Below are positions 1,820 to 14,846 of a stretch of DNA of 39,991 nucleotides, in pieces. Source of the stretch: Chloroflexota bacterium (GTDB lineage Bacteria > Chloroflexota > Dehalococcoidia > UBA2247 > RBG-13-53-26); NCBI GenBank assembly GCA_016876035.1, contig VGOE01000017.1, positions 1 to 39,991 on the forward strand. The letters run 5' to 3'. Under the pieces are notes generated by a model. The model saw only the letters and a program-made list of their open reading frames with translations, searched no databases and was not told where the DNA came from. Numbering within the stretch: position 1 is the stretch's first letter; each line of letters begins with the position of its first letter. The translations under genes and the position numbers were made by a program.

Positions 1820-2836
1820 ATGATCAGAAATCCGGATTTTTACAAGCCTGCCCCCAAGGACAACGCCTGGCACAGCGCACCCTGGGAGTGGTGGTATTTT
1901 GACGCTGTTTTCGAAAATGGCTACTCGATATGGACCTTCTGGGCCTGTGGTTATCCGGGGACGACGAAGGACCCGGAGATGCGGTATGTCGACGTCTGTA
2001 TTAACACGCCTGATGGGATGACGATACAGATGCAGCCTATTTTCCCTCTTCACGAGACATCGGCCTCCACCCAGACTTGCGATGCAAAGTGGGGCGAAAA
2101 CTATGCACGGGGTGGATACCCCAAGTGGGAGATTCACTTCCGCGGTGCGCAAGGCGGCTTAGACCTGGTCTATGAGAACGTGACCCAGGGGGTAAGGGAG
2201 CCTCCAGACGGCTGTTTCATTGGCCGCATCCAGGAGCCGCGCACGGATACCTATTGGACGCACGTGATTCATCCTCGATCCAGGGTTAGCGGCAAGTTGA
2301 TTGTCGGCGGCAAAGAGATCCCGGTTAAGGGTGAGGGCTATACTGATCACCAGTGGGGCAACGTCAGCCTTTTCGATACCTTCCAGTGGTGGTACTGGGG
2401 GCACATTTATCTACCCAATCACACGATACAATTCTTTGATGGAGACTTTGCGGAGAAGTGGGGTTATCAAAGATTCAAGAGGATTTGGCTTCTCAAAGGG
2501 GAGAAGGCGATCGATTACGTGAAGGATGGTATCTATACTGAGGCCAGCGAGGTTGAAATGGAGCCCTTGATGAGGATCACCTACGCTCGCAAGCTAGTGC
2601 AGACGTTTGACACCCCCATGATTCTTGGCACGGTGACTCATCGGATGAAGCACTTCGTACGGTATCCGGCACCCAACTGCCTTGGGCCTCAGGGCACCCG
2701 ACCCCGCGCCTATATGACTTGGGTATGCGAGTGTGATGCCAAACTGGAGATCGACGGTCAGAAAGTGGAGTCTGTATCGCTGAACATGCATGAAAGAAGC
2801 GAGTTCTACCATGAACGGAGGTTAGCTCTGATCTAG
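1820..2836 (+). CDS. Lipocalin-like protein of the CrtC/AttH (hydroxyneurosporene hydratase-like) superfamily
   Basis: 338 residues with no signal peptide. The N-terminus carries 'WEWWYFDAVFENGY' (about 22-35), the hallmark opening of CrtC/AttH-like tandem lipocalin proteins, and the middle has 'GEGYTDHQWGN' (about 173-183), the second conserved block, in which the Asp/His pair is typical. The family includes carotenoid 1,2-hydratase (CrtC), but most members have no known function, and no carotenoid genes are near, so a carotenoid role is not claimed. The ATG at 1820 is preceded by AAAAGGAGGG. It lies between the substrate-binding protein and the PAC2 gene on the same strand. A role with a hydrophobic ligand is a family-level inference. 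Confidence 0.7.
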   Translation: MIRNPDFYKPAPKDNAWHSAPWEWWYFDAVFENGYSIWTFWACGYPGTTKDPEMRYVDVCINTPDGMTIQMQPIFPLHETSASTQTCDAKWGENYARGGYPKWEIHFRGAQGGLDLVYENVTQGVREPPDGCFIGRIQEPRTDTYWTHVIHPRSRVSGKLIVGGKEIPVKGEGYTDHQWGNVSLFDTFQWWYWGHIYLPNHTIQFFDGDFAEKWGYQRFKRIWLLKGEKAIDYVKDGIYTEASEVEMEPLMRITYARKLVQTFDTPMILGTVTHRMKHFVRYPAPNCLGPQGTRPRAYMTWVCECDAKLEIDGQKVESVSLNMHERSEFYHERRLALI

Positions 2837-2979
2837 GATCCGAGCAGTTTAGTGCAAGCTGAAGAATAGAGGATGGTGACAAAGGTTGTGTGCGCGGGAC
2901 CTGGGCTGGTTGGCGTTCTTGAATTCCTGCACTGAGCATCGCTAAATTCCCCCAGTAAAGAATCTGAGGAAGACTGAAA

Positions 2980-3813
2980 TTGCTTGAAAAGCAGCCGTTC
3001 AGAATCTACGGGAAACCAGAGTTACTAAGCTCATCCCTGGTAGTGGGTTGGAGCGAAGATGCTGGCAAACTGGGGCCAAAGGTCATTGGCTACCTTAGAG
3101 AGAAACTGGGAGGCAAGGGGTTTGGAGAAATTGAGCCCCCGGACTTCTTCCCATTAGGGGGAGTGTCCGTTGAAGAAGATGTAGTTCAATTCCCAGAGAG
3201 CAAATTCTACTGCTGCGAAGGAGAGAATTTGGTGCTCTTCTTGAGTAACTCGCCTCGATCGGAGTGGTATAGGTTCCTGAACTCTGTGTTGGACGTAGCG
3301 GAGCACTATTGCCAGGCCAAAGAGGTCTACACGGTTGGCAGCATTGTTTCCTTAAGTGCTCACACAGTCCCACGGAGGTTGCTCGGCATAGCGAGTTCCC
3401 TAGAGATGAAGAAGGTTCTAAGGCAGTATGATATGGCCGTAGACATGGATTACGAAACTCCTCCTGGCCAAAGGCCAACCTTGGGTTCTTTTCTATTATG
3501 GCTGGCTAACATGAGAAATATCGCTGCGGCAAGCATCTGGGTGCCAGTGCCTTTCTATTTGGTGTCAACCGATGACCCATGGGCTTGGAGGAAAGTTGTT
3601 GAGTTCTTGGACAACAGGCTTAGCTTAGGGATCGACTTCACAGATCTCGATGAAAAAGTGGCAAGGCAGGACGAAAAGATGGCTGAGGTAAGGAACCGTT
3701 TTCCTGAGCTCAATGAGTATATCCGCAGGTTGGAGAAGAACCTCGGACTAACTATGGAAGAAAGCGAGAAACTGACCAGAAAGATCGAAGAATTGCTTAA
3801 AAAGAGAGACTAA
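2980..3813 (+). CDS. PAC2-family (proteasome assembly chaperone-like) protein
   Basis: 277 residues starting at TTG 2980, the first start codon after a GAGGAAG ribosome-binding site (2966-2972). Features matching the PAC2/COG1938-COG2047 family are the opening 'LVVGWSEDAGKLGPKVIGYL' strand-helix, the central 'YTVGSIVSLSAHTVPRRLLGI' region, and a short C-terminal helical tail rich in charged heptads (about 228-277, 'RRLEKNLGLTMEESEKLTRKI'), probably a coiled coil. In archaea and eukaryotes relatives help proteasome assembly; bacterial members are common in Actinobacteria and Chloroflexota and their role is unknown. Forty-two bases separate it from the ferredoxin-like gene, so co-transcription is likely. 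Confidence 0.7.
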   Translation: MLEKQPFRIYGKPELLSSSLVVGWSEDAGKLGPKVIGYLREKLGGKGFGEIEPPDFFPLGGVSVEEDVVQFPESKFYCCEGENLVLFLSNSPRSEWYRFLNSVLDVAEHYCQAKEVYTVGSIVSLSAHTVPRRLLGIASSLEMKKVLRQYDMAVDMDYETPPGQRPTLGSFLLWLANMRNIAAASIWVPVPFYLVSTDDPWAWRKVVEFLDNRLSLGIDFTDLDEKVARQDEKMAEVRNRFPELNEYIRRLEKNLGLTMEESEKLTRKIEELLKKRD

Positions 3814-3855
3814 CCATAAGCTAGCCTTTCGAGTATTGTGAGGGAGAACAAATCC

Positions 3856-4848
3856 GTGTCAAACAAAGATACCTACGAAGAACTGGCGGAGATGATAGGC
3901 AAAGAGGATACAGTGGGTATGCCGAAAACCCCTGCCTTCTTGAAGCTGTTGCAAATTCAGTTTACGCCCGATGAAGCCAAATTGGCCCTGCAAGTACGCC
4001 TTTCTGGTGGAACGCTGGCTCAGCTCTCCGAGAAGACGGGCATGGATAAGACCAAACTGAAGCAGAGACTCCATGCCATGGCCGATAAGGGTACCATCCT
4101 CTACGACCCTGGTGAAGAAGACCCCGTCTATAAGGCGGTGGGCATGTCAGCGGGCGGCCTCACTGAAACAGGCCTTTGGGGCAATATCAGATTCAACTAC
4201 ACTGTGGAGTTGGGGAAGACATTGCACCAGGTACTGAAGGAGTTCGCTGAAGAAGGACTAGGCAAATTGGGATTCCCCTATACACCGGTGTGGGCTCCTG
4301 TGGGAGCTCTGCCTGGAGATGCCCTTCCCTCCGAGAATTTGGCGGAAGCTCTTAGAGACGCGGGCCACTGGAGCGTCTCCCCTTGCCCGTGCCGTCTCTC
4401 TCAGTGGCTCGTTAATCCAGACAAACCCTGCGATCATATGCTGGAAGCATGTCTCCATACAGGTGCCCTGAGCCGGTGGGCCGTGAAGCATGGCATGGCG
4501 CGCCAACTCACCTATGATGAGACCATAGAACTGCTGAGGAAATGCAATGAGGATGGGCTTGTCCATACCATCAATCTCCTCGGCCAGATCTGCAATTGCT
4601 GTGCGAACTGCTGTGGCATATTCCGCACCTATAAGATGGGCGCACCGACCTTTATTCCATCTCCTTTCATATCAGAGGTAGATGGGGGGAGGTGCAATGC
4701 CTGTGGGATCTGTGCTGACCGGTGCCCGGTGGAGGCAATAAAGGTTAACGAATCGGCTGATGTTGACATAAACCTCTGCATCGGATGTGGTGTATGCGTC
4801 CCGACATGTGACGTCGGAGCGGTAAGTCTGGTGAGACGTCCCGCCTAA
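3856..4848 (+). CDS. Cys-rich 2[4Fe-4S] ferredoxin-like protein with N-terminal helix-turn-helix-like segment (copy 1)
   Basis: I place the start at GTG 3856 rather than at the upstream in-frame GTG 3838. The 3856 start has AGGGAG (3841-3846) nine bases upstream and makes the N-terminus (MSNKDTYEELAEM) line up with the paralogue at 38133. The 330-residue product has three parts: a winged-helix-like N-terminus (about 27-95, including 'TLAQLSEKTGMDKTKLKQRL'); a Cys-rich middle with CPCR (177-180), C192, C199, C230 and CNCCANCC (246-253); and a C-terminal pair of CxxCxxCxxxC motifs (280-290 and 308-318) that should bind two [4Fe-4S] clusters. This architecture is widespread in anaerobes but has no established function; electron transfer, or redox sensing through the helix-turn-helix part, are both possible. 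Confidence 0.8.
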   Translation: MSNKDTYEELAEMIGKEDTVGMPKTPAFLKLLQIQFTPDEAKLALQVRLSGGTLAQLSEKTGMDKTKLKQRLHAMADKGTILYDPGEEDPVYKAVGMSAGGLTETGLWGNIRFNYTVELGKTLHQVLKEFAEEGLGKLGFPYTPVWAPVGALPGDALPSENLAEALRDAGHWSVSPCPCRLSQWLVNPDKPCDHMLEACLHTGALSRWAVKHGMARQLTYDETIELLRKCNEDGLVHTINLLGQICNCCANCCGIFRTYKMGAPTFIPSPFISEVDGGRCNACGICADRCPVEAIKVNESADVDINLCIGCGVCVPTCDVGAVSLVRRPA

Positions 4849-4968: not shown

Positions 4969-5658
4969 CTAAAGCTCTATTTCTTTCAGGTCAGGCGCTA
5001 TCATAAGCTTGGGTTCAGTCAGTGATTGCACTTCCTCAGCAGTGAGTCCAGGAGCTATCTCCATGAGCAAGAGCCCCTTTGGGGTGACATCAATGACAGC
5101 CAAGTCAGTTATGACAAGCTTGACTACACCTCGCGCCGTAAGAGGATAGGTGCATTCCTTTAGAATCTTAGGCTTTCCGCGGGCGGTAACATGCGTCATG
5201 GTTACGATCACCTTCTTGGCTCCAACGGCGAGGTCCATAGAGCCGCCGATGTTACCAATATGCTCCGGGAATCCCCTCTCCGGGTTGTTCCAACCTGCTA
5301 GGTCTCCCTTCTCGGAGACTTGCAGAGCGCCCAAAATGGCGACGTCCATGTAGCCACCCCGTATCATGGCCAAAGACTCGACACTGGAAAAGTAGCAAGC
5401 CCCTGGCAACTCAGTTACCGGTTGGCAACTGGCATTGATAAGATCTTGATCCACATTCTCTCTGGTAGCCAGTGGCCCGGTGTTGAGCATACCAATCTCA
5501 GCCTGCAACACGATATCCCTACCCTCGATCCAGTCAGAGACCAAAGTCGGTATGCCTATGCCCAAATTGACGTAAGTTCCATCTTCCAGTTCTTTCGCTG
5601 CTCTTAGAGCCATCAATTCCCTGGACAGGCCGCGAGGTATCTTTGTTGCCTTCCCCAC
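4969..5658 (-). CDS. Family I CoA-transferase, beta subunit (3-oxoacid/acetate CoA-transferase type)
   Basis: Catalytic subunit that would transfer CoA between two carboxylic acids through a glutamyl-CoA thioester. 229 residues; 'NLGIGIPTLVSDW' (31-43) is the CoA-binding loop and the catalytic Glu is E54 in 'QAEIGMLNTG' (usual family form 'SENG'). The GTG start at 5658 has a strong ribosome-binding site GAGGAGG seven bases upstream. It follows the alpha subunit by 22 bases, as in atoDA/scoAB operons. Substrate specificity (acetoacetate, butyrate or others) cannot be read from sequence. Confidence 0.88.
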   Translation of the reverse strand: MGKATKIPRGLSRELMALRAAKELEDGTYVNLGIGIPTLVSDWIEGRDIVLQAEIGMLNTGPLATRENVDQDLINASCQPVTELPGACYFSSVESLAMIRGGYMDVAILGALQVSEKGDLAGWNNPERGFPEHIGNIGGSMDLAVGAKKVIVTMTHVTARGKPKILKECTYPLTARGVVKLVITDLAVIDVTPKGLLLMEIAPGLTAEEVQSLTEPKLMIAPDLKEIEL

Positions 5659-5680
5659 TTATTTCCTCCTCAAACGCATG

Positions 5681-6382
5681 TCATTCAATAGTAGGGTAGT
5701 AGCTAGGTCTCTCTACTTTTACTACTCGCTGTACATAGATGCCCGGCACATGAACCACGTCACCGTCTAGCTTCCCTGGTTCTACCAGGTTCTCTACTGC
5801 AGCAATGGTTACCCTTGCTGCTGCGGCCATTTCTGGATTGAAGTTTCTGGCCGTTTTGCGGCAGGTGAGGTTGCCCATCCAGTCTCCCCGATAGGAATAC
5901 ACAAAAGCGTAGTCAGGTTTGAGAGCCAGTTCCAGAAGATACTCCCGCCCCCCGAAGGCCCTCTTTTCCTTCCCGAGCTCAACAGTTGTGCCCACTCCCG
6001 TTGAGGTGTAGAAGCCAGCGATTCCGGCAGCACCAGCCCTCAGTTTTTCAATAAAGGTACCCATAGGATACACCTCCAACTCAATCTCGTCGGCACGAAC
6101 AGCTTGCTCGAAGGGGGAGCTGGCACCTTTGCTAGCTGAGCGGTAGAAAGGGTAGTTGCAGATTGCTTTCTTCACCTGCTTGTTAACGATCAGTTGGGTA
6201 ATGGTATCGTTTCCTGGCCCCATCTGCTGGCAGATTATGGTCAAGTTCTTAGCTCCATGTCTAGCTAGAGCTTGAATAAGTGGGGTGGGAGTGCCTGCTG
6301 TGAAAAACCCCCCGATGGCAATGGAAGCTCCATCAGGAATGTCAGCTACCGCTTCATCTATGTTGGGATAAACCTTGTCCAA
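5681..6382 (-). CDS. Family I CoA-transferase, alpha subunit
   Basis: 233 residues that form the partner of the downstream beta subunit. Recognised by 'GGF' in 'IAIGGFFTAGTPTPL' (about 21-35) and by 'GAAGIAGFYTSTGVGT' (about 117-132), the latter being the usual 'GAGGIPAFYT.TGVGT' signature. The likely start is TTG 6382 with GGAG nine bases before it; no ATG near the N-terminus keeps the conserved opening. The gene begins 16 bases after the PAS-STAS gene stop, so the three genes are probably one transcript. Confidence 0.88.
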   Translation of the reverse strand: MDKVYPNIDEAVADIPDGASIAIGGFFTAGTPTPLIQALARHGAKNLTIICQQMGPGNDTITQLIVNKQVKKAICNYPFYRSASKGASSPFEQAVRADEIELEVYPMGTFIEKLRAGAAGIAGFYTSTGVGTTVELGKEKRAFGGREYLLELALKPDYAFVYSYRGDWMGNLTCRKTARNFNPEMAAAARVTIAAVENLVEPGKLDGDVVHVPGIYVQRVVKVERPSYYPTIE

Positions 6383-6398
6383 ACCCTAATTCTCCAAT

Positions 6399-7226
6399 CT
6401 AGTCCTTCTTGCGGATCTCAAGACCTATGACATTAAGCGCTGCTTGCAGAGCAGCATCTCTGGAGCCGAAGACCCTAACTAAGCTCAGGTCTTCCACCAA
6501 GGGTTCTAGCGCTTCAGCAAGGCACGAATCGATGCCAGTGAGTATGCTCTCTGCGCCTAGCAATCTAGCAATACGAACTGTCTTCAGTAGCTCCCTGGCA
6601 ACACAGGGAGCATCATCTACCAAGGCTGCAGACAGGTCGATGCGAATGACTGCAGTTTTGTGACTCCTCAGATGGCTCAAGAGGTTACTCCTGATGCGCT
6701 CAATACGACTAGCGTCAAGTCGCCCGACTACCACCACTGTTGTGAGCCCCGGATAGAGCTCATATACAGGAGCGCCTAAGTCTTTCCATTCCTCAAGCTT
6801 TGCCTCCAATTCCTCAGCGTATGCCTTGACCTTGGCCTCTTCGGTAGGCCAGGGTCGATATATCTGAAAGTAGCCTACAGCTCCTATGTAGGTACCTGAG
6901 CTATCCTTCAGATGAGCTGCCGAGATACGCACCGGGATTGGCTTTCCCGTTTTTGTCTTCAACGTAGATTCATGGTCATGGATTATCCCGCTGCTGGCAT
7001 AAAGCTTACGGTTTATTTCCTTGGCAGTCTCGAGACTATCATACATATTGACTATAGTCTGGCCAACAAGCTCATGCATCTGATACCCGGTAAGTCTAAC
7101 GGCTTCCTTATTGGCAAATGTAATTACCCCTTCACTACTAATAGCTATGACAGCGTCAGGGCAGCTATTGAGCAAGGCGTCCAAATACCCTCCTCTACCT
7201 GTTTGGGGTGAACATCGCTTCTCCAT
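6399..7226 (-). CDS. PAS-STAS domain protein (RsbR-like sensor)
   Basis: 275 residues from ATG 7226, chosen over ATG 7244 because AAAGGAGG lies six bases upstream of 7226 and nothing resembling a ribosome-binding site precedes 7244. Residues about 14-123 form a PAS domain ('DAVIAISSEGVITFANKEAV', then 'RLTGYQMHELVGQ'), followed by a charged helical linker and a STAS domain (about 150-262: 'VVVVGRLDASRIERI', 'RIARLLGAESILTGI'). The STAS half resembles the stressosome protein RsbR. The usual phosphorylatable Thr after the 'VVD' position appears to be Ala here ('VDDA'), judged by eye. No partner kinase or phosphatase is adjacent. It sits inside a CoA-metabolism operon, so it could sense a substrate or redox state; that is inference. 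Confidence 0.72.
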   Translation of the reverse strand: MEKRCSPQTGRGGYLDALLNSCPDAVIAISSEGVITFANKEAVRLTGYQMHELVGQTIVNMYDSLETAKEINRKLYASSGIIHDHESTLKTKTGKPIPVRISAAHLKDSSGTYIGAVGYFQIYRPWPTEEAKVKAYAEELEAKLEEWKDLGAPVYELYPGLTTVVVVGRLDASRIERIRSNLLSHLRSHKTAVIRIDLSAALVDDAPCVARELLKTVRIARLLGAESILTGIDSCLAEALEPLVEDLSLVRVFGSRDAALQAALNVIGLEIRKKD

Positions 7227-7374
7227 GAATATCCTCCTTTCCATTCTTGATGGAATAGCCTCAGCCCTCTGGCGAACTTTGAGCCGTACCTAAATGGCAA
7301 GTGTACCGCTTTGCTCGTTTTGGGACAAATCGACCCCTCTAGAATGTGCTCGCTCTTGCAGGTGCTGGGATGAC

Positions 7375-8625
7375 TCACGAGACCGTGACTGTTGTTGGAG
7401 CATCGGCATCGGTGGTGATGACACCATTCACCAGCATATCGGCAATCTCGTCATCGGAGAAGCCCAATATATCTTTATATACATACTGGTTGTGCTCTCC
7501 GACACAAGGGGCTGGCTTGTCTATCACACAGGGAGTCTGCGACAGCCGATATGCAGGAGCATGATACGAGTGTGATCCGATAACAGGATGGTTCAACGCA
7601 TGGTAATGCTCGCGGTGCTTGAGTTGAGGATCACCTAGTAAGTCATCACCGGTTTGTACCACTCCTGCGGCGATCCCTGCTCCTTGAAGCATGGCCAACA
7701 CCTGCTCTGGGAGAAAATCTTTCGTCCAGTCGCCGATCAATCGATCCACCTCGTCCTCGTTTTCTTTACGGCCAACGACGGAGTCGTATCTCGGGTCCTT
7801 CGTCCACTCAGGATTACCCATCACGTGGCACAGACGTTGCCAATCCTCGTCGCTGGTCACTGCAAGGGCCACCCAGCGATCGCTGCCACGGCAAGGATAG
7901 ACGCCGTGCGGGGACATATAGCGATCCCTGTTTCCCCTTCGGTTGAGCAGGTTGTGGTTCACCGCATAATCCAGTACGTGAGGCCCCAGGAAGCTGACGG
8001 CTGCCTCTAGCTGTGACTGCTCCATATACATCCCAACCCCTGTCTTCCGACGTCGCAGCAGAGCGCCCATGACAGCAATCAAAGTGTACCATGGCGAGAT
8101 GTAGTCAGAATAGGCAGTGAATATCTGGGTGGGCTCGCTATCAGGCCAACCTGTGACCGCACAAAATCCGCCAAGCGCGTTGACGTGGGTGCCAACCCCC
8201 CTGAAATCACGGTGTGGCCCGTACTGTCCGAGCATGCAAGTGCTGAAGTAAATGATCTGTGGGTTGATCTTGCGGCAGCTCTCATAGTCCAGACCAAGCT
8301 TGGCCATAGCACCAGGGCCCATGCTCTCGCCTACGATGTCAGCCCAGCTTATCAGTCTCCTGGTAACCTCGCGAGCCCGCGGGTTGCCTAAATCCAAGCT
8401 GATCCCATATTTGTTTGCGTTGTACTGGGTGAAAAATGCGCTACGATTGAAAGTCGGGATACTGTCCTTAAAGGGTGGCGATGACCTCAGGATATCCAGA
8501 CGGCGGTGGCTTTCGACACGAATTACCGTTGCTCCGTGCTCTGCTAGCTCACGCCCAACCTGTGGCCCAGCCGCCGCCCAGCAGAAGTCAGCGACACGTA
8601 GCCCTTCAAATATCTGCTTTGTCAT
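7375..8625 (-). CDS. Family III CoA-transferase (CaiB/BaiF type), catalytic Asp replaced by Glu
   Basis: 416 residues from ATG 8625, preferred over ATG 8637 because GGAGG sits seven bases upstream. The N-terminus 'LRVADFCWAAAGPQVGRELAEHGA' is the CoA-binding Rossmann start of CaiB/FRC proteins; 'NPQIIYFSTCMLGQYGP' and the C-terminal 'IDKPAPCVGEHNQYV' are family landmarks. At the position of the catalytic Asp of formyl-CoA transferase (Asp169, 'MQDAV') this protein has E207 in 'MEQSQLEAAV'. Some related family members also carry Glu here, so activity is not excluded. It follows another family III CoA-transferase by 36 bases, which suggests a heteromer or two successive steps. Confidence 0.85.
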   Translation of the reverse strand: MTKQIFEGLRVADFCWAAAGPQVGRELAEHGATVIRVESHRRLDILRSSPPFKDSIPTFNRSAFFTQYNANKYGISLDLGNPRAREVTRRLISWADIVGESMGPGAMAKLGLDYESCRKINPQIIYFSTCMLGQYGPHRDFRGVGTHVNALGGFCAVTGWPDSEPTQIFTAYSDYISPWYTLIAVMGALLRRRKTGVGMYMEQSQLEAAVSFLGPHVLDYAVNHNLLNRRGNRDRYMSPHGVYPCRGSDRWVALAVTSDEDWQRLCHVMGNPEWTKDPRYDSVVGRKENEDEVDRLIGDWTKDFLPEQVLAMLQGAGIAAGVVQTGDDLLGDPQLKHREHYHALNHPVIGSHSYHAPAYRLSQTPCVIDKPAPCVGEHNQYVYKDILGFSDDEIADMLVNGVITTDADAPTTVTVS

Positions 8626-8661
8626 CTTCGCCTCCATCTGTGATTTCGGTTGCTAATAGAA

Positions 8662-9933
8662 TCAGATAACCCCATTGGCCTTCAGAACTCCCATTTGCTC
8701 CAGAGAAAGTCCTAGCTCGCTCTCAAATATCTCCCGGTTGTGCTCGCCAATGAGCGGCGCACGGCGGCTGATCCTCCAGGGTGCGTCTGATATTTTGATC
8801 GGCGCGCCATGGTAGGTAATAGACTCGCCCAGCTCGGGGTGTTCTACGGCCTCCCAGTAATTCCGCTCATGCAGATGGGGGCTGTTGATCAAGTCATCGA
8901 TTGTATTGCAGGGGGCAAGCATGATGCCTCTCTGAACCGCGCCCTCCATCAGCTCGGCCTTAGTTTTCGTTTTGATAAACTCCCCAATTGTCCGATCCTT
9001 CCGATCTGTTTCGTCCTGAGTTATCTTTGACATGTCCCACTGAGAGAAATCGAAATCCTTGAATTCCAGACACATCCCCTCCTCGTTGGCCCATCGTACC
9101 AGGATGGCCGAGGACTTAGCCATGCCTACAAAAGCCCCACCGCCGACCGTAACAATGGCATAGCCGTCTTTACATGGAAACACAACACGTCCCATGAGGA
9201 TGCCGAGGGGCGGCGGCCTGACGCTTATCGAAACCTGCCCGGTGCCAATGACGTTGACCTTCATAAGTTCGGCTATCTCTAGCGCGTTCATTAGCGTCAG
9301 TTCCACTGAATCCTGCATTGAAACGTCTACATGCTGTCCCTCTCCGGTAAGCTGCTGGTGGTAGTATGCCATCACAGAGCCCAGTGCGCCATGAAGGGCC
9401 GCATGGAAGTAAGCTTGAGGGTCGCAGCTCATGCGGACGGGAGGGCGACCGAGTTCACCCAGTATCCTCACCATGCCACCCATGGCCGCGCCGATCAGGT
9501 CCGTGGCACGATAATGAGCGTAGGGTCCTGTCTGGCCGAAAGGGGTAATGGAGGTCATGATGATCTCCGGCTTAACTGCCTTCAGATCAGAGTAACCGAT
9601 GCCCAAGTTGTTCAGGTAGCCAGGTTCGAAGGATTCCAGCACTATATCAGCCGTCTTGACTAAGCGCCTGAAAAGTTCCCTTCCTTCATGATTCTCTATG
9701 TTCAGAGTGATGCCCCTCTTACTGGTATTCGTAGCAAACCAGAACAGGCTCTTCTCCGGGTCAGGGATATCTTTATAGAAAGGCCCGATGTTCCGTGAAG
9801 GGTCTCCTCCTGGTTTCTCAATCTTAATGACATCGGCCCCAAAGTCACCCAGAACCTTGCCCGCCAAGAGTCCCAGTTCGTTGGTCAGATCCAGAACTCG
9901 ACAGCCACCCAGCAATGTTTCCTTCTTTTCCAC
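8662..9933 (-). CDS. Family III CoA-transferase (CaiB/BaiF type), canonical catalytic Asp
   Basis: 423 residues from GTG 9933, with GAGGAGGG just upstream. 'CRVLDLTNELGLLAGKVLGD' opens the fold and 'KIEKPGGDPSRNIGPFYKD' is the conserved CoA-contact segment. 'HVDVSMQDSV' (201-210) contains the expected catalytic Asp, D208, equivalent to Asp169 of formyl-CoA transferase. The enzyme should move CoA between two organic acids through mixed anhydride and thioester intermediates. It is the first gene after a likely promoter and palindrome (9984-10052) and pairs with the Glu-variant downstream. Known two-subunit examples such as BbsEF act on benzylsuccinate; the substrate here is unknown. Confidence 0.88.
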   Translation of the reverse strand: MEKKETLLGGCRVLDLTNELGLLAGKVLGDFGADVIKIEKPGGDPSRNIGPFYKDIPDPEKSLFWFATNTSKRGITLNIENHEGRELFRRLVKTADIVLESFEPGYLNNLGIGYSDLKAVKPEIIMTSITPFGQTGPYAHYRATDLIGAAMGGMVRILGELGRPPVRMSCDPQAYFHAALHGALGSVMAYYHQQLTGEGQHVDVSMQDSVELTLMNALEIAELMKVNVIGTGQVSISVRPPPLGILMGRVVFPCKDGYAIVTVGGGAFVGMAKSSAILVRWANEEGMCLEFKDFDFSQWDMSKITQDETDRKDRTIGEFIKTKTKAELMEGAVQRGIMLAPCNTIDDLINSPHLHERNYWEAVEHPELGESITYHGAPIKISDAPWRISRRAPLIGEHNREIFESELGLSLEQMGVLKANGVI

Positions 9934-9983
9934 TCAATTCCCTCCTCGCTTCAGGATATTCTCGCGGACTTGAGACATATTTC

Positions 9984-9999
9984 CTCAAGCCGTCTTGAG
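9984..9999. promoter_or_regulatory. Palindrome with a third half-site: candidate operator
   Basis: CTCAAG (9984-9989) and CTTGAG (9994-9999) form a perfect 6-bp inverted repeat with a 4-base spacer, and a third half-site CTTGAG lies at 9969-9974. They fall just downstream of the -10 box at 10023-10028, the place where a repressor would block transcription of the CoA-transferase gene ending at 9933. The binding protein is unknown. Confidence 0.4.
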
Positions 10000-10022
10000 T
10001 GATAACGATACCAGCCGAGAAC

Positions 10023-10052
10023 ATTCTATGATGTCGGCTACCACGTGGGCAA
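10023..10052 (-). promoter_or_regulatory. Candidate promoter for the two family III CoA-transferase genes
   Basis: Read on the minus strand: -35 TTGCCC (10047-10052), 18-base spacer, -10 TAGAAT (10023-10028, 5 of 6 match). It lies in the 185-base gap after the acyl-CoA dehydrogenase pair, suggesting that the CoA-transferases can be expressed separately from them. Confidence 0.4.
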
Positions 10053-10118
10053 CACCCACTGGTAAGTGGCGTGTGAGCAAACACAACGCCCTTCAGCCAA
10101 TTGTACCAAAGGCAGCTC

Positions 10119-11255
10119 TCATTTGCTGCGGATTGCCGGCTCGATGGAGGCTAGATGATAGGGTGTCGGGCCGAGGCTCAACTGCCGCGCCTTCGCCCAT
10201 TCGAAATAGAAATGCAGGTCGTAATCCAGGTCCATCCCGATTCCTCCGTGCAGATGCTGGGCCGAGTACGCCACTCTCTGACAGGCATCGCTGACCCATG
10301 CCTTGGCGATAGCTACCTCCCTTTGGGCCGGCAGGCCCTCGCTCAAGAGGGATAGCGCTCTGTAGGACAGCCACCGGGCCCCTTCCACATCCGTCAGCAT
10401 GTCAGCCAGCCGATGCTGCACTGCCTGAAAGCTGCCGATGGGCCGCCCAAACTGCACACGGTTTGAGGTATACTCAGCCGTTATCGACAGCTCTTGTTGC
10501 ATCACCCCTACTGTCTCCACGCATTGGAGGGCTGTCGCCTTTTGCAGGGTTTTCTCCACCACTGCCCAGCCACCATCCACCGCTCCCAACATATCGGACG
10601 GTGGCACCTGTACGCGGTTGAATGTCACTTCAAACTGCTTGTCTTGGCCAACGGTCCTTAACGGAACCAGTTCGATCCCCTGCGCTTCCTTCGACACCAG
10701 AAACACGGTGATCCCTTTGCCGGCATCGTCAACAGAACCGGTAGCAGCCACTGCCAGGATGATGTCTGCCACATGAGCGTAAGGCACAAATAGCTTAGTG
10801 CCAGTAACAGTGAAGTGGCCATTCCTATGCTGGGCTCGTGCGGTCATGAACTTGGGTTGATAGTCTGCCTCCGGCTCGGATAGTGCCATGGTCAGAATCA
10901 GGTCGCCGCTGGCCACTCTGGGCAGAAGTCGCTGCTTTTGCTCCTCATTCCCTTCGTCCAACAAGGGAAGCACCCCAAGGGCCATCGTGGCGAACAGTGG
11001 ACTGGGGCAAGCTGTCTTGCCGACCTCCTCGAACAGGACGCCCAAATCAAGCAGCGTACCGCCGGCGCCACCATATTCCTCCGGGATCACCAGCCCCAGC
11101 CATCCCAAGTCGGCTATCTTCTTCCAGATTTCCGGGGAATATCCCAACTCGCTCTCTTGTAGCTGGCGAACCAGTTTCTTGGGAAACTCGCTGTCGAGGA
11201 AGCGGCGAGCCTCCTTCTTCAGAAGCTCCTGTTGATCATTCAATGCGAAATCCAC
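10119..11255 (-). CDS. Acyl-CoA dehydrogenase family protein lacking the usual catalytic Glu
   Basis: 378 residues from GTG 11255 with AAAGGAG eight bases upstream. The fold is clear: 'FALNDQQELLKKEARRFL' start, 'GLVIPEEYGGAGG' (about 55-66), and 'RVQFGRPIGSFQAVQHRLADM' (266-286). Neither known location of the active-site base has Glu: the medium-chain position ('YEGT' in MCAD) reads 'LGPT', and the isovaleryl-type position falls on A240/T241 in 'QKATALQ'. The 'SEPEAD' segment (126-131) also departs from the 'TEP.AG.D' consensus. The gene lies 13 bases after a second acyl-CoA dehydrogenase that has the Glu. A non-catalytic partner subunit, as in the alpha2-beta2 steroid enzymes of Actinobacteria, is the simplest reading. 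Confidence 0.85.
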   Translation of the reverse strand: MDFALNDQQELLKKEARRFLDSEFPKKLVRQLQESELGYSPEIWKKIADLGWLGLVIPEEYGGAGGTLLDLGVLFEEVGKTACPSPLFATMALGVLPLLDEGNEEQKQRLLPRVASGDLILTMALSEPEADYQPKFMTARAQHRNGHFTVTGTKLFVPYAHVADIILAVAATGSVDDAGKGITVFLVSKEAQGIELVPLRTVGQDKQFEVTFNRVQVPPSDMLGAVDGGWAVVEKTLQKATALQCVETVGVMQQELSITAEYTSNRVQFGRPIGSFQAVQHRLADMLTDVEGARWLSYRALSLLSEGLPAQREVAIAKAWVSDACQRVAYSAQHLHGGIGMDLDYDLHFYFEWAKARQLSLGPTPYHLASIEPAIRSK

Positions 11256-11268
11256 TTCTCCAACTCCT

Positions 11269-12447
11269 TTATCGAGATTTCATCAATCCAAGACCCATCC
11301 TGGCCATGATATCCCGCATGACCTCGTTGGTGCCACCCCCGAAGGTGATCAATAGGTATATCCGGGCCAGACGTTCAATCCACCCGCTCACCGGAGCCCA
11401 TTTGGAGCCCAACTGTAGCTGCCCAAACTGGCCCATGATCTCCTGGCAAATCCTTACTGTGCGGACGATGTGCTCGCTGCCGAAGACCTTGATCATGGCC
11501 GACTCCACGTGGGGTGTTTCTTCCCTTGCCATCTGCCATGCCACCCGGTAGTTCAGTATTTTGAGTACCTCTGACTCCACCGTGAGTTCAGCCAGCTTGT
11601 TCCGTACCCATGGCTGATCGCCGACGCAAGACCCATTGCGCCTGGCGGACTGGGCCCACAGAGTGGTGTCCTCGATTATCCTTACTCCTGCTGAGTGGGG
11701 GACCAGGCTGATCCGCTCGTGGGCCAGTTGGGTCACCATGTACAGCACTCCCAGATTCTCCTCTCCAACCAGGCACTCCTTGGGCACCCTGACATTGTCG
11801 AAAAACTCCTGAGCGATCGCATACTCGTTCATTAAATGCATGGGCTGGATGTTAATGCCGGGACTCTTTGCGTCCACCAGGAAGATCGAGATCCCCTCGT
11901 GCTGACGTTTGGCTTGCGGGTTGGTGCGCGCTGCCAACCAGAAATAGTCCACAGATGTCCCCATGGAGGTAAATATCTTCTGCCCGTTGATGATGTAGTC
12001 ATCGCCCTTCTTGAGAGCAGTGGTCTTGAGCGAGAAGAGGTCAGTGCCGGCTTCCGGTTCCGTGTAGGCTATCCCGAACTGGATATCGCCGTTCAGAATA
12101 GGGCGCAGAAAACGTTGTTTCTGCTCTTCACTCCCCACTCTCATCAAGGTTGGCCCCACTGTCATCAAGCTCAGTACTGGGATCGGGAGCCGGAAGTATC
12201 CCATAGCCAAGTCGAAGAATATGTACTGCTCAAGCGGCGTGCGCCCCTGACCACCATATTCTTGTGGCCACCCGATCCCCGTCCATCCGTCAGACGCCAT
12301 CTTCTTCATGAAATCGCGAAATATGGGCCCCTCACCCTCAAGATAGGTAATCATCTCGTCATCGAGCTCGGGGGGAATGTTTTTCTTCAGGTAGGTGTAA
12401 ATCTCTTTCTCAAGCTGCTCTTGCTCTGGTGTGAATCTAAAATCCAT
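11269..12447 (-). CDS. Acyl-CoA dehydrogenase with isovaleryl-type catalytic Glu
   Basis: 392 residues from ATG 12447 (AGAGGG ribosome-binding site). It would oxidise an acyl-CoA to the 2,3-enoyl-CoA using FAD and pass electrons to an electron-transfer flavoprotein. 'YTEPEAGTDL' (128-137) is the flavin/substrate signature and 'FGGGTNEVMRDI' (369-380) the C-terminal one. The medium-chain catalytic position is Gly, but E244 in 'LAHERISL' matches the alternative base of isovaleryl/long-chain enzymes. It is followed after 13 bases by the Glu-less paralogue, so the two probably assemble together. No etfAB gene is in the window. Confidence 0.88.
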   Translation of the reverse strand: MDFRFTPEQEQLEKEIYTYLKKNIPPELDDEMITYLEGEGPIFRDFMKKMASDGWTGIGWPQEYGGQGRTPLEQYIFFDLAMGYFRLPIPVLSLMTVGPTLMRVGSEEQKQRFLRPILNGDIQFGIAYTEPEAGTDLFSLKTTALKKGDDYIINGQKIFTSMGTSVDYFWLAARTNPQAKRQHEGISIFLVDAKSPGINIQPMHLMNEYAIAQEFFDNVRVPKECLVGEENLGVLYMVTQLAHERISLVPHSAGVRIIEDTTLWAQSARRNGSCVGDQPWVRNKLAELTVESEVLKILNYRVAWQMAREETPHVESAMIKVFGSEHIVRTVRICQEIMGQFGQLQLGSKWAPVSGWIERLARIYLLITFGGGTNEVMRDIMARMGLGLMKSR

Positions 12448-12630
12448 ACTTGCCCTCTTTCTGACCCTGAAAGTTGCCCCATCACTGCTGTCAGGTTCAG
12501 CAGTAGCGACTGAGAATGTGCACTGATCTCCTTTAGCTGTGCTTTCGGGAGCTTGCTATCCCAGCTTGCTTCTCAATCTCTGTGGTATCACGTTACCTGA
12601 CTACACAGGTTGGATGACCAGTCCCGGACT

Positions 12631-13743
12631 CTATTCAGTGCCTAATATCTCAACCGCCTGGGATACCATATCATACATGATTTGTCTTACTGACTTGCGT
12701 TCCTTGATCAACCCCACAACGTTCCCTGCCGGTGTGCTAATCCAGTCACGTAGGCCGGGTTTGTCAAAGAGTGAGAGTGCGTCTGGGTATTCGGTACTGA
12801 CGGAATGCGGCATCGGTGAGTACAGGTTCTGAAAGGGCATCGGAAGGGTCTTCGGCGCGTCCGGCTCATTCCAGCGATCAATATACTTGTTCTTCAGAGT
12901 ACGGGCATTTTTCCCGGTGTATATCTTGGTAGTGACGGCATCTTCGTCGGTAGCCTCAAGCATCTTGTCCTTTATCCAGTCTGCTACCGGACTTTCATGG
13001 GCGGTCAACCAAATAGTGCCCGTCCATACGCCGACAGCACCTAAAGCTAGAGCGGCTGCCAGACCCCTGCCATCCCCTATGCCGCCAGCAGCCAGCACAG
13101 GGATGGGACTGACAGCATCAACTACCTGAGGAACCAGAACGAAAGTCCCTATCCTTCCGGTATGCCCTCCGGCTTCGGTCCCCTGGGCCACGACAATATC
13201 GACTCCAAGCTCCGCCGCACGGCGAGCGTTTTTCACATTGCCAACCAGTGTGATTACCTTGATGCCTGCCGCGCGGCACTCTTCTACAGCCTCACGGGTT
13301 ATTCCCAGTCCAGCAGCAATGATAGCAGGCTTCACCTTGAGGGTTGCCTCCAGTTGCTTCCTTTGCCACTCATGAGTGCCTCCGATGCCAAGGTCCATGC
13401 CATGGCCGCAATAGGTATCCTCAGGCAGCCCTAGCTCTTGTTTGATTCGATCCATGAAGTCCCTGTATTCCTGGGGGACGAAGCCCAGCAGTTGCTCCCT
13501 GGTAGCTGTTTCGGGGCTGGCCTTTGGAAACACAAGGTCTATCCCGAAGGGCTTGTCCGTATGGGCCTTCAGCCAGTTAACCTCTACAGCAATGTTCTCA
13601 GGCGTCAAGGCAATAGCGCCTAGAACGCCGCTTCCACCGGCATTAGATACTGCTGCCACTACGTCGCGGCAATGGTTGAAGGCCATAATCGGATACTCAA
13701 TCCCCAACATGTCACATAGTTCGGTGTGTAAGCTGATAGCCAT
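12631..13743 (-). CDS. Nitronate monooxygenase-like FMN protein (2-nitropropane dioxygenase / FabK superfamily)
   Basis: 370 residues with a TIM-barrel FMN fold: 'MLGIEYPIMAFNH' (12-24), 'AQGTEAGGHTGRIGT' (186-200, including the conserved His194) and 'PIPVLAAGGIGDGRGLA' (213-229, phosphate binding). The ATG at 13743 has AGGAGG six bases upstream. The residues around 72-130 are longer than in minimal nitronate monooxygenases. The superfamily also contains enoyl-ACP reductase FabK and other flavin enzymes, and members often sit in fatty- or aromatic-acid gene clusters, so the true reaction may be an enoyl or other reduction. A 183-base gap separates it from the acyl-CoA dehydrogenases downstream. 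Confidence 0.8.
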   Translation of the reverse strand: MAISLHTELCDMLGIEYPIMAFNHCRDVVAAVSNAGGSGVLGAIALTPENIAVEVNWLKAHTDKPFGIDLVFPKASPETATREQLLGFVPQEYRDFMDRIKQELGLPEDTYCGHGMDLGIGGTHEWQRKQLEATLKVKPAIIAAGLGITREAVEECRAAGIKVITLVGNVKNARRAAELGVDIVVAQGTEAGGHTGRIGTFVLVPQVVDAVSPIPVLAAGGIGDGRGLAAALALGAVGVWTGTIWLTAHESPVADWIKDKMLEATDEDAVTTKIYTGKNARTLKNKYIDRWNEPDAPKTLPMPFQNLYSPMPHSVSTEYPDALSLFDKPGLRDWISTPAGNVVGLIKERKSVRQIMYDMVSQAVEILGTE

Positions 13744-13904
13744 TTCGTTCCTCCTGTATTCTTATCCTATTTTACCATTGTGACTTCCGAATATTAATAC
13801 CTTGACCACCCTGGTGCCACGTTTAGTCGAGAAATGGTCGACCGCAAAGCGGCCGCCGCTACATCTATCGCCAGTTCCAGCATCGTTACTTATAGCCGTT
13901 TCGC

Positions 13905-14846
13905 TCACTCATGTAGATACCGAAAGGAAGATTTGACTATTTTCAGGTGCGTTAAGGGTTCGATGTCTCTTAATCCCGGAATCCTTCCCAGATCATCGTT
14001 GAGGAAATGGCCTAGATCATTCAGCTTCTTGAAGATGACCCACGCAATGATGTTATATGAGCCTGTGTGAGTTCCTACATAGCGGACATCTGGGTAAGAG
14101 GCAACTGAGTTCGCTACCTCGGCAACCTTACCCAAGTCTGCCTTCATCCAAATTGCTGCAACACCGTCGTATCCCAAAAGGAATGGATTAGTAGCGGCTA
14201 TGATATTGATAACCCTCTTATCCTTTAGCCTCTGCATTCTCCTCATCACCGTAGTTTCGGTTGCCCTGATCTTCTTGGCAATGTGAGTTATCGTTTGGCG
14301 AGGATCCCTCTGCAGTTCCCGAATGAGGCTAAGATCAGTTGAATCCAAATCGGTAGGGTCACACGTCGGAGACGGCAAATTCGCCAATACGCCGGTGGAC
14401 AACTTGACGTCGTGCAACTGTAAAGCTATCTCTATGCTTCGAATTCCAGCAATGGAACCCACGCCGTGGTTCAAGAAGTCCAAGAGATCACTACGGTCTC
14501 GGAACAGGGCTCGTCCGCCGGTGATATCAAAACGGCCAATGCATAAGATGATGGTGTGAACTGCCGACCACGATGCCAGTTGGTTTGCTACATCCTCGAG
14601 TTTGCCGGGCTGGGTATTAATGCCAAAAGAGACGTTGAAACTGTACCCCAGGACTTCGGGAGGGACATAACAAACAGGTCTGATGACATGAGCGGTCTGG
14701 AGTCTCTCGAACCGACTTCGCACAGTGTTTCTGCTGACATGCAGCTTGGTGGCCAGATCAGTATAGGTTTGCGCCGCATCGGTCTCCAATTCTCTGATCA
14801 GTTCGGTGTCCAGGTGATCGATGACGGGCGGGTTCCTGGTGCTCAT
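13905..14846 (-). CDS. Tandem-duplicated Lrp/AsnC-family transcriptional regulator
   Basis: 313 residues, about twice the usual length of Lrp proteins. Two AsnC-type helix-turn-helix segments are visible: residues about 12-60 ('LDTELIRELETDAAQTYTDLA', 'HVSRNTVRSRFERLQ') and about 167-215 ('DLSLIRELQRDPRQTITHIA', 'RATETTVMRRMQRLKD'). Each is followed by an alpha/beta ligand-sensing (RAM) half. The N-terminus is preceded by a modest AGGATTGAG and, 16 bases further upstream, by a palindrome. It is the first gene of the minus-strand catabolic cluster and likely its regulator; ligand and target sites are unknown. Confidence 0.82.
   Translation of the reverse strand: MSTRNPPVIDHLDTELIRELETDAAQTYTDLATKLHVSRNTVRSRFERLQTAHVIRPVCYVPPEVLGYSFNVSFGINTQPGKLEDVANQLASWSAVHTIILCIGRFDITGGRALFRDRSDLLDFLNHGVGSIAGIRSIEIALQLHDVKLSTGVLANLPSPTCDPTDLDSTDLSLIRELQRDPRQTITHIAKKIRATETTVMRRMQRLKDKRVINIIAATNPFLLGYDGVAAIWMKADLGKVAEVANSVASYPDVRYVGTHTGSYNIIAWVIFKKLNDLGHFLNDDLGRIPGLRDIEPLTHLKIVKSSFRYLHE

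Follow-up and report, generated by a model that had tools for sequence, protein, structure and literature searches.

Described Counterparts and Organization of the Locus

The closest described counterparts of the genes analyzed in this work come from several degradation systems dependent on coenzyme A (CoA). These are BbsEF (PDB 9fn0), a benzylsuccinate CoA-transferase composed of two family III subunits; two acyl-CoA dehydrogenases (ACADs), i.e., PDB 4x28, which we take to be ChsE4-ChsE5, and Tcur3481/Tcur3483 (6wy8), each with adjacent subunits, of which the large one alone carries a catalytic-type Glu; and IpdC and ScdK, flavoproteins of the nitronate monooxygenase (NMO)/FabK family, which, in the parts of the published descriptions covered, work beside ACADs and CoA-transferase-fold proteins. 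Relatives of these enzymes, together with a SCOT-type (3-oxoacid) CoA-transferase, are encoded by a run of nine co-oriented genes of a Dehalococcoidia bacterium (contig VGOE01000017.1, minus strand, positions 14846-4969). The analyzed stretch (hereafter, the window) is the whole contig (C17; 39,991 nucleotides) of a 2.53-Mb, 159-contig assembly. We propose, with a probability of about 0.6, that the locus is an operon-like mosaic of four exchangeable blocks placed behind a double Lrp-type regulator, and that it starts the degradation of a bulky, branched or alicyclic acid by beta-oxidation.

All nine open reading frames (ORFs) were confirmed in place with the ORF list and Pfam/NCBIfam profile searches, which bears out the gene families and the common orientation given by the initial annotation; as it had also stated, none of the nine genes was found to encode a hydratase, thiolase or hydroxyacyl-CoA dehydrogenase. 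The cluster, which had been left unassigned, could be narrowed to a benzylsuccinate CoA-transferase-like CaiB pair, an ACAD with a 4x28_A-like large subunit and a SCOT-like family I CoA-transferase (CoT). The run is flanked by a divergent RlmN gene on one side and by a convergent gene of an Fe-S protein on the other. Downstream of the regulator gene, the intergenic distances are 161 bp (to the NMO-type gene), 183 bp (to the ACAD large-subunit gene), 13 bp (to that of the ACAD small subunit), 185 bp (to CaiB F), 24 bp (to CaiB E), 130 bp (to the PAS-STAS gene), 16 bp (to CoTa), and 22 bp (to CoTb). The short gaps (13-24 bp) lie inside the modules and the long ones (130-185 bp) between them, and thus the gap pattern matches the evolutionary module borders. 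An Rfam search gave no match.

Asymmetric CoA-Transferase and Acyl-CoA Dehydrogenase Pairs

The family III CoA-transferase pair consists of an F-type (8662-9933) and an E-type (7375-8637) subunit, both with CoA_transf_3 domains. Each of them best matches one particular chain of the solved benzylsuccinate CoA-transferase, i.e., 9fn0_A for the F subunit (E-value 2.3e-68) and 9fn0_B for the E subunit (2e-84). The residue aligned to Asp178 of the E subunit, which we take to be the catalytic Asp of family III CoA-transferases, is kept in 30/30 E rows, and at the aligned F site an Asp was found in 4/28 rows and a gap in 8/28 (in these counts, as in those for the ACADs below, some subunits were counted twice where at least three genes stand in a row). 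The pair has therefore the traits of a BbsEF-type heteromeric enzyme, namely two adjacent, differing subunits and the Asp in at least one of them. It differs from BbsEF in that no bbs-type cluster surrounds it in the window, and its CoA-transferase activity is predicted from sequence.

The order F then E was found in 26/29 adjacent CaiB pairs (all fetched loci up to L180), and each of the three remaining pairs contains weakly typed members. The genome of the window encodes 25 CoA_transf_3 matches over the cut-off and eight adjacent CaiB pairs, including the one discussed here, with F upstream of E in each. Moreover, in one related locus (L194), F and E are joined in a single unbroken 791-aa frame with two CoA_transf_3 stretches, which is natural evidence that both subunits work together. 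Little is known about which carbon sources uncultured Dehalococcoidia use. For SAR202 genomes, an expansion of CaiB genes was interpreted as the ability to process many acyl compounds (PMC5395668, in the part of the text covered). In the present case, an expansion of this kind can be broken down into asymmetric F-E pairs (eight in one genome) with recurring partners, which makes the enzymes and their partners directly testable.

A similar asymmetry was observed for the ACAD pair, composed of a large (11269-12447) and a small (10119-11255) subunit, both with ACAD domains. The best solved relative of the large subunit is 4x28_A (3.7e-91), and this chain and Tcur3483 (both about 1e-90) are clearly separated from the next chains (1e-36). 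For the small subunit, Tcur3481 (6wy8_A; 2.1e-49) was the best match, but the ordinary ACAD 5lnx_A was almost equal (9.7e-49), which distinguishes the window pair from ChsE4-ChsE5 and Tcur3481/Tcur3483. A Glu at the site of Glu244 of the large subunit, to which we ascribe a catalytic role, occurs in 17/18 large-subunit rows (one has Asp) and at the aligned site in 0/20 small-subunit rows. ChsE-type ACADs likewise have adjacent subunits of which a single one carries a catalytic-type Glu, and a heterotetramer is predicted also here.

The ACAD pair is duplicated in the same genome, on contig C24 (86.6% nucleotide identity over 2418 bp; positions 10050-12455 of the window versus 2406-4808 of locus L161), where it sits behind genes of a lipoprotein, a DUF7064/7065 protein, an APH-type kinase, a Zn-ADH, and an aldehyde ferredoxin oxidoreductase (AOR)-type protein. 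The small-subunit genes of the two copies are 93.7% identical, with 96-100% at their ends, and the large-subunit genes only 80.0% (dS of about 0.97). Since the small-subunit genes are near-identical at their ends while the large-subunit ones have diverged, it looks like the former were converted between the two copies, although mixing of near copies by the metagenome assembly is also possible. In another region of this genome (L165, 10510-20000), a homologue of a DUF35-tailed protein and a thiolase gene are followed by an uninterrupted series of two ACAD large-small pairs and two additional large-type genes.

The last block comprises a PAS-STAS gene (6399-7244) and two CoA-transferase genes, CoTa (5681-6382) and CoTb (4969-5658). 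In the PAS-STAS protein, Pfam PAS was recognized, and STAS was marginal (21.1 bits, just below the cut-off of 22.6); the match to the YtvA family was also below its cut-off. Both CoT subunits exceed the cut-offs of the SCOT-type subfamilies (CoTa: TIGR02429, 238.6 versus 128.5 bits, with 3cdk_A matched at 1.2e-54; CoTb: TIGR02428, 263.3 versus 243.55 bits, aligned to 3rrl_B and 8k9h_A), and CoTb keeps the Glu in QAEIG; the preceding PAS-STAS gene sets them apart from the described SCOT-type enzymes. The PAS-STAS-CoTa-CoTb unit was identified in three genomes of the same family (G006, G008, and G001; loci L172, L174, and L177), with PAS-STAS proteins 50-53% identical to that of the window. In three further genomes (G009, G007, and G002), CoTa-CoTb has no PAS-STAS neighbour, and in G005 the contig ends upstream of it.

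The NMO/FabK-Type Flavoprotein

The flavoprotein gene (12631-13743) encodes a full-length member of the NMO superfamily, as indicated both by the PF03060 score (197.6 bits, gathering score 28) and by the fold, since the closest folds to its AlphaFold2 model (pLDDT 90.4) were FabK and NMO structures. His194 of the EAGGHTG motif is invariant in 34/34 aligned proteins. Another loop is distinctive: relatives have ILAGMGG-like (AGMGG-like) residues there, and the window protein has AFNHCRD. In a tree of 96 rows, constructed with the loop stretch left out, the 36 motif rows formed one group, explained by one change (SH-aLRT 96), and in a smaller tree of 77 rows the 28 motif rows were also grouped (SH-aLRT 92). 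These are quick trees with long branches; a third tree omitted 24/102 rows, the 77-row tree 25/102, and the 96-row tree the same 25 rows and L201 (the same record as L063). The third tree indicated two changes, as the motif regular expression missed L076 (SFTHC); the motif rows include L076 and the Lentzea rows (GFTPS), and in the 96-row tree also L200 (AFAHT). Members of the AFNHCRD-like clade come from Chloroflexota, Actinomycetota, Myxococcota, Pseudomonadota, and Gemmatimonadota.

Two other assignments of this protein were considered. Against the NCBIfam enACPred_II model of FabK enoyl-ACP reductase, it reached 203.4 bits, below the equivalog cut-off of 453.1. It is not an orthologue of IpdC: the IpdC-like protein of a HIP-type Sterolibacterium locus (L183) is 29% identical, has another loop (QTAMGWV), and forms a long separate branch, and the AFTHC protein of the same Sterolibacterium genome is 43% identical to the window protein. 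The comparison with IpdC was based on this locus; in the Mycolicibacterium stretch, the queries used gave no IpdA/B/C-like match.

Pfam names the members of this clade nitronate monooxygenases, and their neighbours suggest acyl-CoA chemistry instead, which marks the clade off from that label. Tentatively, the AF[NST]HC[RK]D clade might constitute a new catalytic subfamily within NMO/FabK, i.e., flavin-dependent acyl-CoA dehydrogenases, reductases or isomerases with a remodelled flavin loop, which, together with asymmetric CoA-transferases and ACADs, could enable Dehalococcoidia, as well as bacteria from four other phyla, to oxidise isoprenoid or alicyclic acids, perhaps without oxygen in the lineage of the window.

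The kinds of enzymes encoded by the locus are known; what is new, within the open-licence literature searched, is their combination and the flavoenzyme clade, for neither of which a description was found there. Only one report (PMC6164631) was retrieved in which CaiB and ACAD are combined with NMO (or 2-nitropropane dioxygenase) as search subjects. It describes, in the text covered, a Clostridiaceae scaffold from a naphthalene enrichment with CaiB genes, two NMO-type flavoproteins, ECH and thiolase, which is the nearest published cluster that we found. Its authors doubted the nitropropane-dioxygenase annotation and suggested arylcarboxyl-CoA reductases. The scaffold differs from the window in its shorter flavoproteins (315 and 321 aa) and, in the text covered, in the lack of an ACAD pair.

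Gene Neighbourhoods in Related Genomes

For the comparative analysis, 80 named loci (the best 80 of 244, close relatives included) were collected with two peptide patterns. The gene caller used was trained on the window genes, and its scores are thus no independent proof of coding. The neighbourhood counts covered 96 NMO loci, after four of 100 (three duplicate records and the paralogue from the window's own genome) had been dropped. In the bins of 0-1.5, 1.5-4, 4-7, and 7-10 kb from the NMO gene (274, 412, 443, and 382 kb of sequence, respectively), there were 22, 16, 7, and 1 CaiB matches (falling from 0.80 to 0.03 per 10 kb) and 16, 7, 15, and 2 ACAD matches (from 0.58 to 0.05 per 10 kb), the second ACAD peak of 0.34 per 10 kb at 4-7 kb coming mostly from related Acidobacteriota loci. 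Family I CoA-transferases (4, 0, 0, 0) and DUF35 (8, 0, 0, 3) were counted in the same way. CaiB, ACAD, and family I CoA-transferase genes are thus densest next to NMO, which is a trend and not a p-value, because many of the loci are related.

Searching 393 genomes of the class with the window NMO gave a match at E <= 1e-60 in 134 of them, and orthologues 71-76% identical were identified in four genomes besides that of the window (G007, G004, G151, and G342). The order F-E-NMO is present in G007 up to the contig end, and in G342 a thiolase-DUF35-ECH cluster on the opposite strand faces the NMO gene. The richest of these loci (L192 of G151) contains, in one direction, genes of an ACAD large subunit, a 154-aa protein, an ACAD small subunit, a lipoprotein, a second NMO-family protein, a Zn-ADH, NMO, CoTa, CoTb, a lipoprotein, an SDR, and a second ACAD large-small pair. 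Its NMO orthologue (72% identical) lies 43 bp from CoTa-CoTb, the ACAD large and small genes, with the 154-aa gene between them, are 65% and 72% identical to those of the window, and the Zn-ADHs of L192 and of the C24 cluster mentioned above share 73% identity; L192 thus combines genes that the genome of the window has on two contigs, C17 and C24. Directly after the second ACAD pair of L192 (14245-16239), a flavoenzyme of the BaiCD/FadH-OYE family is encoded, with scores below the family cut-offs.

In L194, the NMO gene (motif AFSHC) is accompanied by two MaoC genes, the CaiB F-E fusion, an ACAD large-small pair, a thiolase, and DUF35, with gaps of no more than 17 bp; a P450 and a ligase gene are located upstream of the cluster. 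The thiolase exceeds the cut-off of the lipid-transfer protein model PRK07855, which presumably corresponds to Ltp2. Relatives such as L194 share heteromeric ACADs, a MaoC pair, and a lipid-transfer-type thiolase with DUF35 with the scd and chs-ltp2-type steroid clusters; the window differs from these clusters in holding activation and dehydrogenation genes only and in having a CaiB pair. Other combinations include NMO, ACADs, ECH, thiolases, and DUF35s (L196, L197, and L199) and CaiB genes with an FAD_binding_2 protein, thiolase, and ECH in a Sterolibacterium locus (L077). Among loci with the ordinary NMO loop, ACAD large subunit-NMO-F-E are co-oriented in three (L050, L051, and L095), L052 shows ACAD large subunit-NMO-F up to the contig end, and L063 has NMO-ACAD large subunit-CaiB. 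In the genome of the window itself, contig C26 (L144) carries F-E, an ACAD pair, two adjacent MaoC-type genes, and a second ACAD pair.

Proposed Function and Alternative Explanations

The recurrence of its parts together in relatives supports the previous view of the locus as a CoA-dependent acid-degradation cluster. In the proposed pathway, the heteromeric CaiB-F/E enzyme, with the Asp on its E subunit, would transfer CoA to the free acid from an acyl-CoA donor, and the ACAD, probably an alpha2beta2 complex with the Glu on its large subunit, would form a 2-enoyl-CoA and pass the electrons to the electron transfer flavoprotein. The NMO/FabK-type protein may introduce or remove another C=C bond in the skeleton bound to CoA, like IpdC/ScdK but as a member of another subfamily; the action on an unusual intermediate suggested for it earlier could plausibly be that of a C=C oxidoreductase with a CoA thioester as its substrate. 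The separable PAS-STAS-CoTa-CoTb unit may recycle CoA donors such as succinyl-CoA, or handle a 3-oxo acid. With its activation and dehydrogenation steps and an additional C=C step that depends on flavin, this pathway would parallel ScdA, ScdC1C2, and ScdK of Comamonas and IpdC, with ChsE4-ChsE5 and the activation with succinyl-CoA by BbsEF as additional precedents in the published descriptions, as far as covered. The genes may be co-transcribed, with the regulator responding to a putative ligand.

Hydration, beta-dehydrogenation, and thiolysis would be performed by enzymes encoded elsewhere in the genome, where 24 ECH_1 and 13 Thiolase_C_1 matches over the cut-off were found. The missing hydratase and thiolase, used formerly as an argument against plain beta-oxidation, say little, because relatives join these modules to MaoC or ECH and thiolases and such enzymes are encoded elsewhere in this genome. 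The relatives, with their thiolase, MaoC pair, DUF35, and P450, point to bulky or isoprenoid acids, and the substrate is perhaps alicyclic or isoprenoid, judging from gene content.

Several observations weigh against this proposal. The complete nine-gene set is present in none of the four genomes with NMO orthologues (in G007 the locus ends at the contig edge), its conservation as a whole was not found in the relatives examined, and in G004 only one CaiB-like gene occurs within about 5 kb of NMO, about 3 kb away. Thiolase (5, 11, 5, and 5 matches in the four bins), ECH (4, 9, 6, 4), and SDR (2, 15, 6, 3) show no sharp fall-off from NMO. Within 5.5 kb of the mycobacterial members of the flavoprotein clade, neither CaiB nor ACAD was matched in the stretches examined, and the clade is therefore not restricted to a single pathway. 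No nine-mer is common to at least three intergenic gaps (three 9-mers occur in two gaps each), for which reason a shared operator was rejected, and promoter and terminator matches (10 and 11) are near the level of shuffled sequences (7.2 and 8.1 expected). Finally, the fetched L172, L174, and L177 stretches contain PAS-STAS-CoTa-CoTb without CaiB, ACAD or NMO genes. The nine genes are therefore not one conserved unit. In the neighbourhood search that the initial annotation had proposed, the co-occurrence of CaiB, ACAD, and NMO in relatives held, and the scattering named there as a refutation was found for the PAS-STAS-CoT block. This block is separable, yet CoT genes beside NMO recur, e.g., a more distant CoTa-CoTb follows NMO in G003 and G004 (L046 and L058).

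Among the alternatives, an Lrp-regulated metabolism of branched- or short-chain, amino-acid-derived acids by SCOT-type CoT and ACADs, with no bulky substrate, is unlikely but deserves the most attention: it remains a rival on account of the Lrp-type regulator and the SCOT-type CoT over its cut-offs, and the nearby lipoprotein with a Peripla_BP_6 homologue and the small ACAD subunit nearly as close to 5lnx_A as to Tcur3481 fit it as well. The large ACAD subunit, which 4x28_A and Tcur3483 match far better than the next chains do, the CaiB pair nearest to benzylsuccinate CoA-transferase, and the MaoC pairs, lipid-transfer-type thiolase, and P450 or FAD_binding_2 proteins added in relatives argue against it. 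The subunit-by-subunit match of the CaiB pair to 9fn0 would suit, in turn, the degradation of aryl- or alkylsuccinates formed by fumarate addition (Bbs or Nms type), as would the thiolase and DUF35 of relatives, which we assume to resemble BbsAB (the BbsB model was matched below its cut-off), and three untyped PFL-like matches in the genome. These matches, however, lie on other contigs (C8, C42, and C128), and the published Bbs enzymes include, in the descriptions covered, one dehydrogenase (BbsG) and no NMO-type protein, which leaves this possibility slightly less likely than the former.

It is improbable that independent genes were merely brought together by chance. Gaps of 130-185 bp between the modules, the separability of PAS-STAS-CoT, and the lack of the exact set in the other loci examined would be expected then, but not the association of CaiB and ACAD with NMO, the presence of NMO, ACAD genes, and CoT together in L192, or the co-orientation of ACAD large subunit-NMO-F-E in three other loci. 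The least probable explanation is a true member of the steroid C/D-ring (HIP/Scd/Ipd) pathway. Despite the functional parallel with ScdA, ScdC1C2, ScdK, and IpdC, such membership is largely refuted (no search aimed at an orthologous ipdABC set in this genome was made) by the divergence and different loop of the L183 IpdC-like protein, by CoTa, which matches SCOT at 1e-54 and the 6coj/6co6 chains, presumably IpdA, at about 1e-5, and by the IpdE2 model, the only one used to look for cholesterol genes, which scored far below its cut-off. The mosaic of exchangeable blocks initiating the beta-oxidation of a bulky acid is thus preferred over these four explanations.

Regulator, Lipoprotein, and Other Genes of the Window

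In the single chain encoded by the regulator gene (13905-14846), HTH_AsnC and the AsnC ligand-binding domain were each matched by two stretches with Pfam and NCBIfam. Siroheme decarboxylase (AhbA/AhbB), which has an Lrp-like fold, was considered for this protein and rejected (39.2 and 40 bits versus the NCBIfam cut-offs of 140 and 125). Seven further double-Lrp-like genes are present in the genome of the window (contigs C1, C24, C25, C33, and C43), two of them located upstream of ECH, ACAD or thiolase genes on the same strand (L162 and L165).

On the plus strand, at 300-1523, a substrate-binding lipoprotein is encoded, which is a possible, not a certain, member of the system; its homologues recur beside related clusters, and that of L161 is 40% identical and matches PF13458 (Peripla_BP_6). 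Such homologues were found in L057, L142, L161-L163, L166, and L192 (the genome of the window and G151) and are often encoded on a contig that also carries a CaiB, NMO, ACAD or AOR-type gene. Between the lipoprotein gene and that of a PAC2 protein, a 338-aa protein (1820-2836) gave no Pfam match at an E-value of 0.001. Near both ends of the contig (3838-4848 and 38133-39131), paralogous Fe-S proteins with C-terminal ferredoxin-type stretches are encoded, which are 59% identical to each other.

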